A DNA stretch of 36,471 nt from a virus, in IMG/VR virus record IMGVR_UViG_3300011113_000552, positions 1-36,471 of that record; one strand, 5' to 3'. The position numbers were made by a program, and so were the translations under genes. Below are positions 5,518 to 34,157 of the stretch, piece by piece. Under the pieces are notes generated by a model. It was given only the letters and a program-made list of their open reading frames with translations. It ran no database searches and was not told where the DNA came from. How positions within the stretch are numbered: position 1 is the stretch's first letter; the number at the start of each line of letters is the position of its first letter.

Positions 5518-6798
5518 CTATCCCTCCATTTGGAAAATATAGTACGTATCTCCGTCAAAAACAATAGTATCTTCGTCTCCGTTATAGTGATTAAGAATAT
5601 TTCCATATCCATCGGACTCTACAACACCCGCAATTAATTTTTGCATATCGACAAAGTTACTAAGTTCAAGACCATAATTTTTTATGGTATCTGCAGGATT
5701 ATCAACAAGGTCATCTAATATACTTTCAACCTTATCATCAATCATATATTCAGGAATATCTTTGTCACTATCTCTTAATTCCTCCAATTCTTCATTCAAT
5801 TCATCAAATTCTTCTTGTGATAAACTTTCAGGGTTTTCTAATTTCGCCTCAATTTCATCCATTCTATTTTGAACTTCCTCACTATGCTCGAACTCATCCT
5901 CATCAAAATAACTATCAAGATTTTCTCTGACATTATCGTATTCACCCTCTCTAAACCAATCTTTTAATTCTTCTTCATCAATATAATCCTCAACAAATGA
6001 TTGTCTAAATCCATCAAGACCAACGTCGTCAATTAAGTTTTCAGTTGACTCTCTAGCCGATAGGTCTGTGTCATAGGTATCCCCAACCGCCCATTGTTCC
6101 TTACTTTTACCTTCAGGTGTTGCAACTTTAAATAAATAAAGACGATAAAATTTCCCATCAGGAATTAAATCGTAAACATCAATTCGTTTACTTAATTCAT
6201 CCATCTCTTCAGTTAATGTTTCAATCTCATCAACTAAATCACTATCTTCATTATACCCTTCAATTGATTCAATTTCTTCAATTCTTTTTCGGTTATTTTC
6301 AATCGTTGCGTTGTCTCCAGGTTCCTTAGCGTCGTACTCATATCTAGTAAGATGTTCAAAAAGAGCATTTGCACATGATGCCAAATCACTTAGGGTTTCA
6401 CCTTCCCAAGCACCTTCTTGTCTTAATTCATCTTGAGCTTCTTTTTCTTTTAAAAACTCCAAATAATTAATTCTTTTTCTATACTCACTGCCGTGGTCAA
6501 AAACGTACCCACTAACTTTAATACCGTTTAATGTTGAAACCGCAGTATGAGAAATATCTAACTTTCCATTTATTGTTATATTACCTAAATTAACTACCGG
6601 AGTACCATTAACACTTAAATCACCATCAATAACAATTTTTTTACCTTTAAATTGTCTAAGGTTATTTATTTTTCTTCCATCCCATGATACAAATTCTAAA
6701 AACTCCAAATACTTCTGAGGAGAAATAGTTACCGAATCAATTTCTTGACTTTCTAAAATTATTTTTTTCAGTATTTCCTTGATATTATTTTCTAACAT
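5518..6798 (-). CDS. Acidic protein with LRR-like N-terminal repeats, possible head protein
   Basis: A 426-residue, very acidic protein. The N-terminus ends in KKIILES (residues 11-17), one of several [IL][IL]xE motifs in this window that resemble T4 capsid-targeting cleavage sites. Residues about 40-105 hold short repeating strands (IVIDGDLSVNG, ITINGKLDIS, LNGIKVSG) that look like a short LRR or beta-helix. After residue 150 come long acidic coiled-coil-like stretches full of Glu and Asp. It ends with a GYGNIL and TYYIFQMEG segment. The ATG at 6798 is preferred over an upstream non-ATG start. Function unknown; packaging inside the head is inference from the N-terminal motif. Confidence 0.7.
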   Translation of the reverse strand: MLENNIKEILKKIILESQEIDSVTISPQKYLEFLEFVSWDGRKINNLRQFKGKKIVIDGDLSVNGTPVVNLGNITINGKLDISHTAVSTLNGIKVSGYVFDHGSEYRKRINYLEFLKEKEAQDELRQEGAWEGETLSDLASCANALFEHLTRYEYDAKEPGDNATIENNRKRIEEIESIEGYNEDSDLVDEIETLTEEMDELSKRIDVYDLIPDGKFYRLYLFKVATPEGKSKEQWAVGDTYDTDLSARESTENLIDDVGLDGFRQSFVEDYIDEEELKDWFREGEYDNVRENLDSYFDEDEFEHSEEVQNRMDEIEAKLENPESLSQEEFDELNEELEELRDSDKDIPEYMIDDKVESILDDLVDNPADTIKNYGLELSNFVDMQKLIAGVVESDGYGNILNHYNGDEDTIVFDGDTYYIFQMEG

Positions 6799-6803
6799 AC
6801 TAT

Positions 6804-6825
6804 TATAAATATACAAATATTTATA
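6804..6825. promoter_or_regulatory. Overlapping TATAAATA boxes (T4 late-promoter-like)
   Basis: TATAAATA is present on the plus strand at 6804-6811, facing the small gene at 6855, and on the minus strand at 6825-6818, 20 nt before the ATG at 6798. This equals the T4 late -10 element. In DNA this AT-rich the octamer can occur by chance, so the call is weak. Confidence 0.25.
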
Positions 6826-6854
6826 AGTAATAAACATTTAAAAACCTTAAAATT

Positions 6855-6980
6855 ATGGGATGCGGATGTAAGGGTGGTCAGTCAAATAAAAACCAACCAA
6901 CAAAACCAGTACAAAAAGAAAATTTGCAAAACGCAATTAAAACTACAATTGAAAAGTACTATAACAAAAATAAAAAATAA
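6855..6980 (+). CDS. 41-residue Cys/Gly-rich peptide
   Basis: A short ORF of 41 residues starting MGCGCKGGQ, followed by a polar Lys/Gln/Asn-rich tail that ends EKYYNKNKK. The CxC motif directly after the start is its only notable feature; two cysteines with one glycine between them could bind metal or form a disulfide. It is followed 40 bp later by a second, even smaller peptide with the same CGCG pattern, and both precede a terminator. Being intergenic, in a suitable frame and paired with a similar peptide supports a real gene. Function unknown. Confidence 0.6.
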   Translation: MGCGCKGGQSNKNQPTKPVQKENLQNAIKTTIEKYYNKNKK

Positions 6981-7020
6981 TAACTATTTATAATAATAAA
7001 CTCTTTAATCTTTTAAACAA

Positions 7021-7071
7021 ATGAAAAACGGTGGTGGTAACAACGGTGGCGGATGTGGTTGTGGTAAATAA
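7021..7071 (+). CDS. 16-residue Gly/Cys peptide
   Basis: A very small ORF encoding MKNGGGNNGGGCGCGK. It shares the C-G-C-G signature with the 41-residue peptide 40 bp upstream, and a terminator hairpin follows 30 bp downstream, so it closes a short rightward unit. Ten of 16 residues are Gly or Cys. Nothing is known of its role; a metal-binding or redox peptide is possible. Its size alone makes the call uncertain. Confidence 0.45.
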   Translation: MKNGGGNNGGGCGCGK

Positions 7072-13260: not shown

Positions 13261-14610
13261 TTAAATTACATAATAAAAACCATCTCCTTGGTCGTCTAAT
13301 TTTTCCATCAATCTTGGCGGAATTGATATGTTAGGGTTACTCTTATTAAGATTAATAAACCCTAAGTTATCTAAATCCGCTAAACATTCAGGTAAGGATT
13401 CTAAACTACCATTACCAGGTAATGCCAACATGTCAAGTTTTTTACAATTGCAAATTTCACTAGGTAAACTTTTAGCAAAGTTTTTAAATAAAATTGCCTC
13501 AAGATTTTGGAATCTACCAATACTTGCAGGTACGTCGTAAGCAATCGCCTCTTTACCTTCATTCTTAATTGATAGATGTTCGATTGTGTCAGGTAAGTTA
13601 TCAAATAACTCGTCAAAACCATATAAAGCAATGAACTTACCTGCAGAACTTCCTGGATATGTAATCTCAGCTTTATTGGAGTTACTGCTAGTTAAACCTT
13701 TTGCAAATTCAGGTTTGAAGTAATCTCTTAATTCTGATAATTTACCATTTAATAACTGAACCAAATCTTGCTGATGGTCATGTCTATCCATAAATTGATT
13801 AGATGGGAAGTGGAATTGATATCTTTCAACTGGTAAGTTAGAAACCTGACCACGTTGTTCGGACTCATTTGGTAAAATCACGTACAAAGGACCATCTTTA
13901 ATATATCTGTCAAAATATGTAAGACCAGGTGATGATGTACACCATCTTGATTCTAACTTATCATACTCATGTTGTCCACCGTAGAAACATGCCGCATCTT
14001 TACCTAATTTATCACTTCTTTCAATTTTAATAACAGTCCAATTAGGTCCTCTAAATACGATATCTCCACCTGGGTGTTGGTATGTTGAAGCCGCAGCTTT
14101 CTTCTCTTCCTTACTGGCTTTAACCTTTTCTAATGAAAAATCTTTTACCAAATCAAACAAAGATTTTGGTGTTAATTTATTAATGTCTCTAACATCTTCA
14201 GGTAATCTACCTTTAAACTTTTCAAATTTTTTAAGGTCGGTTGTTGTTTTGTATAAATCCTCCAAAAATAAATCACGATATGCTTTAACTTCTTTCGCAT
14301 AAGCTTGTTTGTCCTCAGGGTCAGCTTCAATATCAACTGGTTTTAAAAAACTTTTTAACAACCAGTTAGTGTATTTACCAACTTTAATATTCTCCATCTG
14401 CTCAGGAGTTAAAGTATCGATATCCCCTTCCATATTTCTAGGGATTTTAGTATCAGGGTCAGCAAGTATAATTGACTTTAAAATTTCAAACGGTATTTTA
14501 CCTGGCTCTTTCTTTTTACTTTCAGGATTTTTATCAACTAACTTATCATACAATAACTTAAATCGTGAATTTTCTACGATAATTGACTTTAATAAATTTG
14601 TAAATTTCAT
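13261..14610 (-). CDS. Leucine-rich-repeat protein, possible head protein
   Basis: A 449-residue protein with three visible parts. The N-terminus MKFTNLLKSIIVENSR ends in an [IL][IL]xE motif (Glu13) resembling a T4 capsid-targeting cleavage site. The middle has a conserved-looking domain with CFYGGQHEYDKLESRWCTSS and YFDRYIKDGPLYVILP. From about residue 335 to the end there are leucine-rich repeats: LPDTIEHLSIKN, FQNLEAILFKNFAKSLPSEI, CKKLDMLALPGNGSLESLPE, LDNLGFINLNKS. LRRs usually bind proteins. If cleaved and packaged, it could be an internal head protein injected into the host, but that is inference. The product has no signal peptide. Confidence 0.72.
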   Translation of the reverse strand: MKFTNLLKSIIVENSRFKLLYDKLVDKNPESKKKEPGKIPFEILKSIILADPDTKIPRNMEGDIDTLTPEQMENIKVGKYTNWLLKSFLKPVDIEADPEDKQAYAKEVKAYRDLFLEDLYKTTTDLKKFEKFKGRLPEDVRDINKLTPKSLFDLVKDFSLEKVKASKEEKKAAASTYQHPGGDIVFRGPNWTVIKIERSDKLGKDAACFYGGQHEYDKLESRWCTSSPGLTYFDRYIKDGPLYVILPNESEQRGQVSNLPVERYQFHFPSNQFMDRHDHQQDLVQLLNGKLSELRDYFKPEFAKGLTSSNSNKAEITYPGSSAGKFIALYGFDELFDNLPDTIEHLSIKNEGKEAIAYDVPASIGRFQNLEAILFKNFAKSLPSEICNCKKLDMLALPGNGSLESLPECLADLDNLGFINLNKSNPNISIPPRLMEKLDDQGDGFYYVI

Positions 14611-14635: not shown

Positions 14636-15475
14636 TCAATAATTCATTATTAATAACTCTTCTCCCATATTTTGAGATTTTCCTTTCTTAGCCGCCGCAG
14701 CTTTGGCAAATTCTTTCTTTTCCCATTTATATTGGTCTTCGGGAAACCATTCGTGCAAAAGTACGAAATCATAGTAAGATAATGAAAACTTTCCTTGAAT
14801 ATTTTTTAAACAATTAGCAAGACGTTCATGGTCATCTCTATCAAAATCATGGTTTGAATAGTAATCTTCAGTTCTATAATAGGGTGGGTCAGCGTAAAAA
14901 TATGTTGTAGGACTATCAAACTCTTTGATAACATCTTCAAAATCACCTAATCTAAAATGGCTAATTTTATTGAAGTGTTCGACCCATTCAGGTTTAGATA
15001 ACTTATCTCTAAATGTAAGATACTTCGATTTATACTTACCCTTTAAATCGATAAATGAAGATGTCTCAGGTTTGGACCCACTGAACACTTGTGTTAAGAC
15101 ATAAGCATATTTTGCGGCAACATTATAGTCGGGGTAATTAATTGTGAACCCCTCACCAAATATCTCTTTCTGAAATTCAACAAATTGTTCTCTATATATA
15201 GGTAGGGTAACTTCCTCACCTTGTTGTTGACATGGGATATTATTAACCGCAGAAAGTAATAATTCAGGGTTTTGTAAACACATGAATAAATTGTAGTTGA
15301 GGGGATTGAAGTCGTTATAAACGACTTTTTTTAGATTAGGATATTCTTTTAAATCCATATTAAAGAAACACCAAAACATTCCACCGAATGTCTCAACATA
15401 TGTTTCCATATCTTTTGGGTAAAATGGAACAATCCATTTACCAATCTTTGATTTACCACCAATATAAGAGAGCAT
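14636..15475 (-). CDS. D12-class DNA adenine methyltransferase (Dam-like)
   Basis: A 279-residue N6-adenine methyltransferase of the D12 (alpha) class, like Dam. The N-terminal GGK (residues 6-8) and YVETFGGMF (26-34) form the AdoMet-binding part, VVYNDFN (51-57) follows, and the catalytic DPPYY is at 196-200 with RTEDYY after it. The order (cofactor first, catalysis later) is the reverse of the enzyme at 3298, so the two are unrelated in class. No restriction partner is adjacent. It is likely an orphan methyltransferase that modifies phage DNA to avoid host restriction; the target site is unknown, although many D12 enzymes methylate GATC. Confidence 0.92.
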   Translation of the reverse strand: MLSYIGGKSKIGKWIVPFYPKDMETYVETFGGMFWCFFNMDLKEYPNLKKVVYNDFNPLNYNLFMCLQNPELLLSAVNNIPCQQQGEEVTLPIYREQFVEFQKEIFGEGFTINYPDYNVAAKYAYVLTQVFSGSKPETSSFIDLKGKYKSKYLTFRDKLSKPEWVEHFNKISHFRLGDFEDVIKEFDSPTTYFYADPPYYRTEDYYSNHDFDRDDHERLANCLKNIQGKFSLSYYDFVLLHEWFPEDQYKWEKKEFAKAAAAKKGKSQNMGEELLIMNY

Positions 15476-15501: not shown

Positions 15502-15633
15502 TTAATCTTGGTACATATCAACCTTTTTGTTACGCTTATATACCTTACCCGATGGTTTAACACGAGTAATCATATTACGTCTCACAATCTGAGCAACATG
15601 TCTAACGTTTAATTGTAGTTTTTCCTTTTCCAT
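15502..15633 (-). CDS. Small basic protein
   Basis: A 43-residue ORF starting MEKEKLQLNVRHVAQIVRRN and containing RVKPSGKVYKRNKK, so it is strongly basic, with a helix-turn-helix-like spacing (VRHVAQIVRRNMITRV). It might bind nucleic acid, but it is too short to assign. It is located 26 bp upstream of the D12 methyltransferase start. A TATCTTTG box lies 5 nt before its ATG, the same near-leaderless arrangement as at 4745 and 9560. Confidence 0.55.
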   Translation of the reverse strand: MEKEKLQLNVRHVAQIVRRNMITRVKPSGKVYKRNKKVDMYQD

Positions 15634-15692: not shown

Positions 15693-15700
15693 TATATTTG
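15693..15700 (+). promoter_or_regulatory. Rightward -7 box before a structured RNA
   Basis: TATATTTG on the plus strand with TTTT 20 nt upstream (one base off TTTG). Transcription would start near 15706, at the left end of the GC-elevated structured region. Confidence 0.45.
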
Positions 15701-15705
15701 TATCA

Positions 15706-15850
15706 CGATTGAAGGATATGGGTTGACTTGATGACCCAAACCAAATTATCAAGTCGGAATTGAGTCCCGGTGTATTCAAAGGCAAACGCCTCAACCGTTA
15801 GGTGAAAAAGATAAGAACCCTCATTACATCGGATGTATTGGGGGTTTTTA
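15706..15850 (+). ncRNA. Candidate structured non-coding RNA with H-type pseudoknot
   Basis: About 145 nt with no credible ORF. G+C from 15711 to 15810 is 44 percent by count, well above the surrounding AT-rich DNA. Visible structure: GGGT (15720-15723) pairs with ACCC (15734-15737); inside that loop GACTTGAT (15725-15732) pairs with ATCAAGTC (15748-15755), giving a classical H-type pseudoknot with an A-rich third loop. Then follow an AGGC-AAAC-GCCT hairpin (15780-15791), a small ACC-GTTA-GGT hairpin and a long terminator hairpin. It has a -7 box upstream and a T-tract at the end. It does not match tRNA, tmRNA or hammerhead patterns that I can recognise. It could be a trans-acting RNA or a structured leader or trailer. 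Confidence 0.55.
15817..15850 (+). terminator. Strong, possibly bidirectional terminator hairpin
   Basis: ACCCTCATTACATC pairs with GATGTATTGGGGGT over about 14 positions with one mismatch and one G-T pair, then TTTTTATTTAT. On the minus strand the stem is followed by a weaker T-rich tail (CTTATCTTTTT), so it may also end the leftward gene that stops at 15852. Confidence 0.75.
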
Positions 15851-15851
15851 T

Positions 15852-16238
15852 TTATATATAGATTTGAATATCATCATCCCCTGTTGGGTAGAATTTCTTT
15901 TTTCTGATTGTCGTCACAATGTTAATTGTATAATTGTAACAATCTTCTTCTTCCATACTTGTTACAATATTCAAGAATGGGTAATCGGTTTGGGATATAA
16001 CGACCGAACTATCTTGTCCAATTTCTTGTTCTTTGATTTTTTCAATGATTTGTGGAGTTGCTCTATTGAGTAAACTTAGTAACTCATCATTAGTAATTTC
16101 TTCTTCTTTCCCGTGTCTAAATCTTTGTACTTTACCATGAACTGAATTTTCTATGGAAAATTTAATTTTGATTTCTCCATAAATCTTTCCAATTCTCTCC
16201 TCATTAATTATATTTCTAACACAAGTTAAAAGCTTCAT
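15852..16238 (-). CDS. Unknown protein with capsid-targeting-like N-terminus
   Basis: A 128-residue protein starting MKLLTCVRNIINEER, again with a hydrophobic [IL][IL]xE motif near residue 13, as in the proteins at 5518, 13261, 28146 and 30930. The rest has an acidic helix and an RHGKEEEITNDELLSLL segment, then strands ending KKKFYPTGDDDIQIYI. No family recognised. It lies directly left of the virion-like genes at 16412-17235. The leader ATTTATTGTTATG is identical to that before the gene at 3263. Confidence 0.62.
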   Translation of the reverse strand: MKLLTCVRNIINEERIGKIYGEIKIKFSIENSVHGKVQRFRHGKEEEITNDELLSLLNRATPQIIEKIKEQEIGQDSSVVISQTDYPFLNIVTSMEEEDCYNYTINIVTTIRKKKFYPTGDDDIQIYI

Positions 16239-28145: not shown

Positions 28146-29816
28146 TTATTGAGTTTTTTCGTTATATCCAATCAACTTTTTCATTTTACTCATTTCTTCG
28201 TTTAAGAAATTAGTATTTTCGTTCTCAGTTGACTCTCCTAATTTTTTAAACATATTGTCTAACTTACCTGATTTTTTAGTTTCACCGGCGGTATCAACAG
28301 GTTGTCTTACTCGATTGTAACTTTTTTCAACTTCCTGTTGGTATAAATTTTCTTTTCTCTTTTTATTTATTTTTTTACCGTATCCTGTATCAACAGCATT
28401 TGCATATTTTGGTGAATTTCCTGTTTTCTCAGAACCTTCAATATTTGCAGTTACCCACTCTTCATTTGGTTCAATTTCATCATATTTTAAATTTTCCATA
28501 CCAGGTGAGTATGCAAAGTTTTCAATATATTCTTCAACCGCATCGGATGCTTGGTAAGCTTTCTTAGACATTTCTCCTAACTCACCGTTACCTTTTGGGA
28601 AATAGTCAGGGTTCATCTCAAAACTACCTTTAGAGCCAGCCTTAACGTAATCTTTCATTTTTTTCTCAACATCCTTTAATGCCTTTTTATTAATGTCTTC
28701 GTCTTTACTGTGAACTCTATCATACTGAACTAATCCTTTAGCCTTACCACCACCTTTTAGATTGTTAGTAATTTGTTCTTCTTTAATTATATTGTCAATC
28801 ATATCAACTAATTCATTTTCAGTTAAATTAACATAACTATTTTCAGATAATGCAACTTGGTACATAACTGACTCATGTTTAGCACCTTTAAATCCTCCGA
28901 TATTTTTTGCGAAATTTGCCATTTTAACAACTTTAGAATCATCGGATTTCATAGCTTTATTTATACATTTTTGTGTAACTTCTCCATCCTCAGACGCCAA
29001 TCCATTTCTTTTACACCATGTTGTAAATTTACCTGAAGTACCTTTATCTTCCATTTTCTTGGTTGCCTTTTGAATAAACTTCTTGTCTTCCGCTAATGTT
29101 TCAAAATCATTCTCTTCATCCTCACCATCAAATAAACTTCCATCCATTGTGTCGTATTCATCTTCAACGTTGTGGTCCCTTTTAATATATCTTTTTAAAT
29201 ATTTAACAAGATTTTCTTTATCGTCATCAGATGGATTCATTAAATTCATATTACCAAAAACAGGATGTGAATCTTCCATACCACCTAAATCTTCTTTAAC
29301 AGTTTTTTTCTTTTTACTGTTTCTTAAAACTTCAAAATCTTTAGCATCTATTTTATTTTTTGGTTTAGCTTGTTTAGCGATGAACATTTGTTTTTTAGAG
29401 TATTCTTCATTTGACTCAACTTTATAAGTTTTACCATCAACTTCAAAAGAATCCTTTCCACTTTTTCTTGCTTTAGCTAACTCTCCTGAAAATTTATTTC
29501 CTTCACCCATTTCAGAAGTTTTTTTATTTTTACCTAATTCGTGTATTCTTTTCATAATTAAATTTTTGCTTAATAATATTTCATTATTTGTTTTTTCATT
29601 TTTGAATTTTCCTCCACCTTGTTTTGATTTTCCTAAATATATAACTCTAACAGGTTCAGAATTTTCATCTTTTAAATATTCATATTTACTTCCAACTTCA
29701 AGGTCTATACCATTGTCGTCTTCTAATCTACCTAATAATTTTTCGGTCAACTCGTTAGCTTTATCAAAAATTGACTCTTTTAATAAATTATCGATTATTT
29801 TTTGAACCTTATTCAT
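28146..29816 (-). CDS. Possible prohead core or scaffold-like protein
   Basis: A 556-residue, highly charged protein. It begins MNKVQKIIDNLLKESIFD with an [IL][IL]xE motif (Glu14). A similar motif recurs at 343-347 (IIKEE) and the C-terminus reads FLNEEMSKMKKLIGYNEKTQ. Between them are acidic and basic disordered-looking stretches and one folded module (about 245-310) with GTSGKFTTWCKRNG and VTQKCINKAMKSDDS. Repeated potential cleavage sites in a charged, low-complexity protein recall T4 core proteins degraded by the gp21 prohead protease. That function is inference; no family is claimed. Confidence 0.62.
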   Translation of the reverse strand: MNKVQKIIDNLLKESIFDKANELTEKLLGRLEDDNGIDLEVGSKYEYLKDENSEPVRVIYLGKSKQGGGKFKNEKTNNEILLSKNLIMKRIHELGKNKKTSEMGEGNKFSGELAKARKSGKDSFEVDGKTYKVESNEEYSKKQMFIAKQAKPKNKIDAKDFEVLRNSKKKKTVKEDLGGMEDSHPVFGNMNLMNPSDDDKENLVKYLKRYIKRDHNVEDEYDTMDGSLFDGEDEENDFETLAEDKKFIQKATKKMEDKGTSGKFTTWCKRNGLASEDGEVTQKCINKAMKSDDSKVVKMANFAKNIGGFKGAKHESVMYQVALSENSYVNLTENELVDMIDNIIKEEQITNNLKGGGKAKGLVQYDRVHSKDEDINKKALKDVEKKMKDYVKAGSKGSFEMNPDYFPKGNGELGEMSKKAYQASDAVEEYIENFAYSPGMENLKYDEIEPNEEWVTANIEGSEKTGNSPKYANAVDTGYGKKINKKRKENLYQQEVEKSYNRVRQPVDTAGETKKSGKLDNMFKKLGESTENENTNFLNEEMSKMKKLIGYNEKTQ

Positions 29817-33329: not shown

Positions 33330-34157
33330 TTAGATGTAATCAAACAGTGTTGAACTTTCGTTTCTTAGTTTTCTTAAAGCTTTTTCTTTAATCTGTCTAA
33401 CTCTTTCTTTAGTTAAATTGAAATCACTTCCAATATCTTCTAATGTTCTTGGGGTACCACTTATACCGTAATAATCCTCAACTATTTGTCTTTCTCTATC
33501 GTCTAATACGTTCATGATTTCAAATAAACCATCTTTCAATTGTTGTTTATTGTTGAATACTTCATCAGGCATTAATGAATCCTTATTTTCAATTAAATCA
33601 ATTAATGTGTCTCCGTCTTCATTAATCTGATGTTCTAAATGTATTGTTGAGGGTAAGTTTACAAATTTACCGTCAATCTCTCCTCCATCCTTTTCACTAC
33701 GTTTTTTATCTTTCTGTAAATCTTGAATAACATTAACAGGGATTCTGATTGTTCTTGAATGTTCATTCAAAGATTGTAAAATTGATTGTCTAATCCACCA
33801 AACAGCGTAAGATATAAAACGTAAGTTTTTAGACCAATCAAAATTTTGTATCGCTTTCATTAGACCAATATTACCCTCAGCAACCAAATCTGAAAAGTCA
33901 ACTCCCTGATTTTGGTACAACTTTGCTACAGTAATAACAAATCGTAAATTACCTTCCAAAAGTTCTTTTTGTATTTTTTGTCTTTCTCTCTCTGTTATGT
34001 CCGGTGATTGTATCAATGATGATAACTCCCTTTCCCTTTCAGGTGTCATAACCTTAATCTTTCTAAGGTCTTTTAAGTAGTAAGAAATTTCATCTTGATT
34101 AATTGGAATTACAACATTCTTGTCTACCATCTTTGTGTTATTTTTTTGAGTACTCAT
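33330..34157 (-). CDS. Phage-encoded sigma-70 factor, RpoD-like
   Basis: A 275-residue sigma factor. Region 1.2 (about 21-50), region 2 (about 66-140; LRFVITVAKLYQNQG, then DLVAEGNIGLMKAIQNFD, then FISYAVWWIRQSILQSL) and region 4 (about 210-265; LDDRERQIVEDYYG, then LEDIGSDFNLTKERVRQIKEKALRKLR) are intact. The middle (141-200) is short and unlike region 3 of bacterial RpoD. It resembles the Bacteroidota primary sigma, so it should direct host RNA polymerase to phage promoters, in the role that T4 gives to gp55. The ATG at 34157 overlaps the next gene by 20 bp; an internal ATG at 34130 is possible. Confidence 0.9.
   Translation of the reverse strand: MSTQKNNTKMVDKNVVIPINQDEISYYLKDLRKIKVMTPERERELSSLIQSPDITERERQKIQKELLEGNLRFVITVAKLYQNQGVDFSDLVAEGNIGLMKAIQNFDWSKNLRFISYAVWWIRQSILQSLNEHSRTIRIPVNVIQDLQKDKKRSEKDGGEIDGKFVNLPSTIHLEHQINEDGDTLIDLIENKDSLMPDEVFNNKQQLKDGLFEIMNVLDDRERQIVEDYYGISGTPRTLEDIGSDFNLTKERVRQIKEKALRKLRNESSTLFDYI

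Follow-up and report, generated by a model that had tools for sequence, protein, structure and literature searches.

What is the role of a structured RNA that lies between two leftward genes of a phage and encodes no protein? The question is raised by a locus within the window, the 36,471-nucleotide stretch of DNA analysed here, a linear IMG/VR fragment (record IMGVR_UViG_3300011113_000552). The plus strand between the two genes reads as an RNA gene made up of a -7 box, an H-type pseudoknot, three hairpins and a terminator (Table 1). An earlier note on this DNA, drawn from the letters alone, had listed the -7 box, the interlocking helices S1 and S2, the third loop, two small hairpins and the strong terminator, and all of these are present in the window; the two small hairpins correspond to HP2 and HP3, and a third, HP1, had gone unlisted. 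The raised G+C content that the note described is also found (0.44 for positions 15700-15799 versus 0.20-0.34 in the surroundings), and the plus strand of the RNA region contains no open frame, as it had stated. In stand-alone copies of the RNA from other phages (see below), a TAnnTTTG box is located 10-23 nt before the pseudoknot. Other types of the RNA have a canonical -33 TTTG box 19-20 nt upstream, which is not evident ahead of the RNA of the window. The succession of HP2 and HP3 may resemble the nexus of the Cas9 tracrRNA.

Table 1. Features of the RNA locus and of its neighbours in the window.
Feature	Position	Strand	Basis or remark
-7 box TATATTTG, Bacteroidota-type	15693-15700	+	read from sequence
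Structured RNA, predicted transcript	15706-15850	+	start placed from the -7 box; covariance-model homologues
H-type pseudoknot	15720-15755	+	geometry; S2 rewritten across types
Pseudoknot stem S1, GGGT/ACCC	15720-15723 / 15734-15737	+	
Pseudoknot stem S2, GACTTGAT/ATCAAGTC, 8 bp	15725-15732 / 15748-15755	+	
Third pseudoknot loop, AAACCAAATT	15738-15747	+	
Hairpin HP1 (TTGA[G].../...TTCAA)	15760-15779	+	homologous hairpin covaries, 4/5 pairs
Hairpin HP2 (GGC AAAC GCC)	15781-15790	+	predicted fold; GG..CC retained in other types
Hairpin HP3 (UCA, bulged A, CC / GG, UGA)	15791-15805	+	upper stem covaries
Intrinsic terminator, strong	15816-15849	+	directly beside the convergent gene's stop codon
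128-aa protein, capsid-targeting-like leader MKLLTCVRNIINE and predicted RelE/RegB-like RNase domain, putative partner	15852-16238	-	alignment, model, pairing
Gene for a small basic protein, pointing away from the RNA	15502-15633	-	conserved and adjacent to the Dam gene across many relatives; its place in the unit is doubtful
D12-class N6-adenine (Dam-like) methyltransferase	14636-15475	-	PF02086
Phage sigma-70-like factor	33330-34157	-	Pfam; relatives carry an RNA copy on its 3' side, absent in the window

The folding energy of the plus strand was -48.7 kcal/mol, compared with -33.9 kcal/mol in shuffled sequences (z -4.1, reached by 0 of 200 shuffles), whereas the minus strand showed no such excess (z -1.4). 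Of 10,000 dinucleotide-shuffled versions of the local sequence, 94 contained a pseudoknot of the same geometry with an S2 of at least 5 bp; S2 of the window measures 8 bp. Scanning for this geometry alone behind 5,453 TAnnTTTG sites in the fetched loci yielded 20 distinct matches, all of them members of the RNA family described here, and a relaxed scan yielded the 20 family members and one other, versus 2-6 matches in shuffled sites. The note had been unable to name a known family, and a search of the window and of 18 loci against Rfam release 15 likewise gave no match at the gathering score. The best match below threshold was His_leader (24.7 bits, cut-off 49), which fell on the terminator and on A-rich parts. 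Scans of the RNA region for tRNA and tmRNA were negative, and a riboswitch reading was rejected because the window holds no same-strand gene downstream of the RNA before the terminator.

Using the neighbouring Dam-like methyltransferase gene as a syntenic anchor, we found RNAs at the same spot, on the opposite strand, in relatives of the window. These RNAs form types A, B, C, D, E and F, which share a common layout and differ in sequence; type A comprises the window and its close relatives, and the core of type B reads GGGTTGAACCGAGATTACCC..ACAACTCGG. A covariance model built from types A and B (R1) recovered types D and E, as well as extra copies behind a phage sigma gene. At least 80 viral contigs contain the B core, the commonest form, letter for letter; none of the 84,980 bacterial and archaeal genomes searched does. 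The RNA family is undescribed and widespread in environmental giant phages. Its carriers are a family of uncultured giant phages that probably infect Bacteroidota, a host group suggested by the promoter type TAnnTTTG. DNA similarity identified no homologue of the RNA in isolated phages; the matches obtained there were promoter stretches rich in A+T or short matches due to chance, such as those to a terminator of Klebsiella phage Marfa and to a mogra repeat. R1 matches on the opposite strand and most of the weak R2 matches in genomes were disregarded as terminator or AT-rich DNA, as were R1 matches at the ends of sigma genes (L295 and others), which span coding DNA and a terminator. Type D RNA is made of two tandem pseudoknot-hairpin units in L115 (3670-3798 and upstream) and L119 (1116-1246), and of a single unit in L122 and L124.

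The conservation of the structure was examined in an alignment of 38 B-type sequences, in which 95.8% of the cells of the proposed structure are paired. Changes on both sides were seen in nine pairs, compared with 6.0 in shuffles, and in 95 cells, compared with 31.5. The covariation score was 0.259 versus 0.132 in shuffles (reached by 0 of 500), and slid controls all scored far lower. Within type B, the hairpins and the outer S1 pair covary, the latter being A-U in 18 sequences and U-A in 16. Because the search pattern dictated the B core, the evidence for S2 comes from the comparison between types. The two arms of S2 differ in sequence between types yet stay complementary in all seven (A, A', B, C, D, E and F): read as RNA, they are GACUUGAU/AUCAAGUC in the window, and those of other types are ACUUAAU/AUUAAGU, CCGAG/CUCGG, UCAG/CUGA, GUCAGC/GCUGAC, GGUUCG/CGAACC and GUAAG/CUUAC. 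The upper stem of HP3 also covaries, as CC/GG, CUU/AAG, CUC/GAG, UUC/GAA and UUCUA/UAGAA. Together, the homologues, the covariation of the paired arms in related phages, for which the earlier note had asked, and the lack of an ORF conserved among the homologues support its view of an independent RNA with an H-type pseudoknot.

The best clue to the function of this RNA is the abutting protein gene, which the earlier note had overlooked. In the window, this gene lies tail to tail with the RNA terminator, and in all stand-alone types, A-F, the terminator is found no more than ~14 nt from a small gene encoding a leader-bearing protein, which starts with MKLLxxIKxxIxE or similar. A convergent gene follows the RNA in 27 of the 80 B loci listed, and 26 of the 27 encode a homologue of the window protein (family A9). 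C, F and H RNAs stand upstream of genes of a second family, A10, and D and E RNAs upstream of a third, A11; the leaders of A10 and A11 are similar to that of A9. To assess the pairing independently of the RNA, we retrieved loci by one A9 protein subfamily only. A structured convergent RNA was present in all 36 of these loci that include the flank; 18 of them scored 112-125 bits with the B model, and most of the remaining ones carry a second RNA class with the motif GGAARACGATTMAGATAC, a class assigned by eye and by its -7 box. At partner genes taken from a sigma-based sample, this position was occupied by further, new RNA types. Moreover, a -7 box was found at the expected side and distance of 43 of 53 partner genes, compared with 158 and 192 of 1,358 control genes (12-14%). 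The second RNA class is unrelated in sequence, has its own TATCTTTG box and carries its motif once or twice in the same slot, on the convergent side of the A9 gene (L289, flank of 6658-7041; L332; L341; L369-L375).

The association is looser in other respects. No partner gene is found within 1.3 kb in 32 of the 80 B loci listed, and the B copies behind a sigma gene are often among those with no partner nearby. Partner homologues are found without the RNA in LR745206 and LR756508, and L060, L061, L232 and L246 contain A10-like ORFs of 208-210 aa with no adjacent RNA. Near-identical B-type RNAs stand beside partners that share only about 25-30% identity, and close partners stand beside different RNA classes, indicating that RNA and protein have not coevolved one to one. 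Upstream A10 genes in same-strand B loci were not counted as partners of B, because the A10 gene of L224 has a type H RNA of its own. Type H RNA (GGGA AG CTTAC TCCT ... GTAAG) also precedes A10 genes in L306 (upstream of 6726) and in L222 (upstream of 5881), the latter locus having a B copy as well.

To learn about the nature of the partner, we analysed its sequence and its predicted fold. A search with the 128-aa window protein alone gave no match, and neither Pfam nor PHROG gave a match backing the RNase call for the partner proteins. The alignment of family A9 demonstrated that E13, H34 and T109 are invariant and R41 nearly so; E13, the glutamate of the IINE motif in the leader of the window protein, is invariant in 23 homologues. 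AlphaFold2 models were of medium confidence, with a pLDDT of 73 for the window protein and 72 for the second model, and the predicted fold consists of helices followed by an antiparallel sheet, as in RelE/RegB-like RNases. In BFVD, the window model matched a protein (A0A5S9BZ39) of the cultured Tenacibaculum phage PTm1 (E 1.3e-7) and an Escherichia phage "site-specific RNA endonuclease", the name given to RegB (E 6.7e-4). Comparison with the PDB ranked CdiA-CT, HigB2 and RelE at the top, with modest Z values of 4.5-5.7, a size that can arise by chance. The A10 model independently ranked CdiA-CT, RelE, ParE, HigB2, BrnT and YoeB highest. A9 and A10 have no detectable sequence similarity beyond the leader, and it is informative that the models of two sequence-unrelated families appear to reach the same superfamily. 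Support for the predicted RelE/RegB-type RNase fold of the window protein is moderate. As to the leader, a T4-type (gp21-type) prohead protease, PF03420, scored above the cut-off in 13 of 20 relatives and in 13 of 14 contigs longer than 200 kb, the window itself being a fragment.

From the conserved and covarying RNA, its pairing with leader-bearing families, the similarity of predicted folds and the prohead protease of relatives, all computed here, we infer a scheme in which the RNA, once transcribed, would neutralise a toxic RNase. It is quite possible, and we favour this reading tentatively, that the RNA inhibits, in the manner of an antitoxin, an effector of predicted RelE/RegB fold packed into the head, and that its orphan copies may give immunity. 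As the T4-type capsid-targeting-like leader suggests, the RNase would probably be made late in infection, packed into the head via the leader, trimmed by the prohead protease after the invariant leader Glu and injected into the next cell. In the producing cell, the RNA would bind the RNase and restrain it until it is packed, so that phage and host RNA would stay undamaged until lysis. Partnerless RNA copies, such as those behind a sigma-factor gene, would confer immunity to effectors that other phages bring in. A broader proposal, that virion-delivered RNases of RelE/RegB fold and pseudoknot "immunity RNAs" constitute a new toxin-antitoxin-like class whose orphans serve in competition between co-infecting giant phages, is conceivable but more doubtful.

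Many B copies are located 2-17 nt after the sigma stop codon or shortly beyond it, on the same strand (L118, L119, L191, L198 and others), and stand-alone copies have a -7 box of their own, as would be expected of a regulatory RNA acting in trans on phage gene expression, for example together with the sigma factor or the RNA polymerase, with small cargo genes as incidental neighbours. This is unlikely, however, since the RNA lies away from the sigma gene in the window and in the other Dam-adjacent A/B loci, a B copy is present in 4 of the 80 loci closest to the sigma factor of the window, and loci retrieved by the partner gene always carry an RNA. The RNA could also serve the RNase-like protein as a cofactor, specificity factor or co-packaged cargo rather than as an inhibitor; tight pairing and sequence-conserved loops would be equally expected of an activating ribonucleoprotein. 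Yet partnerless copies of the RNA are common and such orphans would make less sense, and RelE-type enzymes are not known to need an RNA cofactor, which renders this role quite unlikely. In types A and B the terminator is common to both convergent units, so that the transcripts would overlap at their 3' ends, in line with a cis element that combines a bidirectional terminator with an antisense RNA controlling the mRNA of the convergent gene. Types C, D, E, F and H, on the other hand, precede the gene on its own strand and do not overlap it, and the pseudoknot is retained while its sequence changes, making such an element very unlikely. Antisense pairing was unsupported, the RNA core being not unusually complementary to the start region of the partner. 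Finally, phages are known to acquire mimics of type III antitoxin RNAs. A decoy that mimics a host RNA, for instance to defeat a type III toxin-antitoxin system or another RNA-binding defence of the host, would fit the diversified RNA types as the outcome of an arms race and the pseudoknot RNAs that act as ToxIN antitoxins (PMC5086642), but it is the least probable of these readings, as the exact B core is missing from all the bacterial and archaeal genomes searched and the linked RNase-like gene would be left unexplained.

Type III antitoxins are pseudoknot RNAs that act against RNases (PMC5086642), and by analogy the inhibitory RNA proposed here would work like a type III system without being a member. 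As in ToxIN, CptIN and TenpIN, an H-type pseudoknot RNA lies beside a small RNase-type gene, here a predicted one, and types C, D, E, F and H also have the type III arrangement, with the RNA first, then the terminator and the protein gene (PMC5086642). In contrast to the Kid-like fold of ToxN, the fold predicted here is of RelE/RegB type; the partner models match RelE, HigB and ParE chains, with no ToxN among the PDB matches listed. The window has a single RNA unit instead of tandem repeats (two units being seen only in the D-type L115 and L119), and types A and B are convergent rather than arranged as an operon. Because this repeat organisation and operon order are lacking in the window, we do not count the system as a formal type III member. 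Orphan RNAs, the capsid-targeting-like leader of the protein and the location on phages further set it apart.

RegB resembles YoeB and RelE, and an anti-RegB partner has been speculated upon (PMC3014915); KreT, a validated toxin, is distantly similar to RegB (PMC12487901). The partner protein has no sequence match to RegB, the RelE-YoeB-HigB superfamily or KreTA and is like them in its predicted fold, but their known partners are proteins or none, whereas here an RNA is linked and a leader peptide is present. With the internal head proteins of T4, the partner shares an N-terminal amphipathic leader that ends in (I/L)xxE, and its phages encode a gp21-type protease; it differs from them in its mature domain. 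Should the RNA turn out to inhibit the protein beside it, RNA antitoxins would be known for the RelE/RegB fold too, the question posed for T4 of whether a phage encodes a partner for RegB-like enzymes would have an answer, and a virus would be seen to shield its factory cell by RNA from its own packed effector. We also noticed other proteins with capsid-targeting-like N-termini in the window (13261-14610, 5518-6837 and 28146-29816, all on the minus strand), which suggests that many proteins may be packaged in the heads of these phages.
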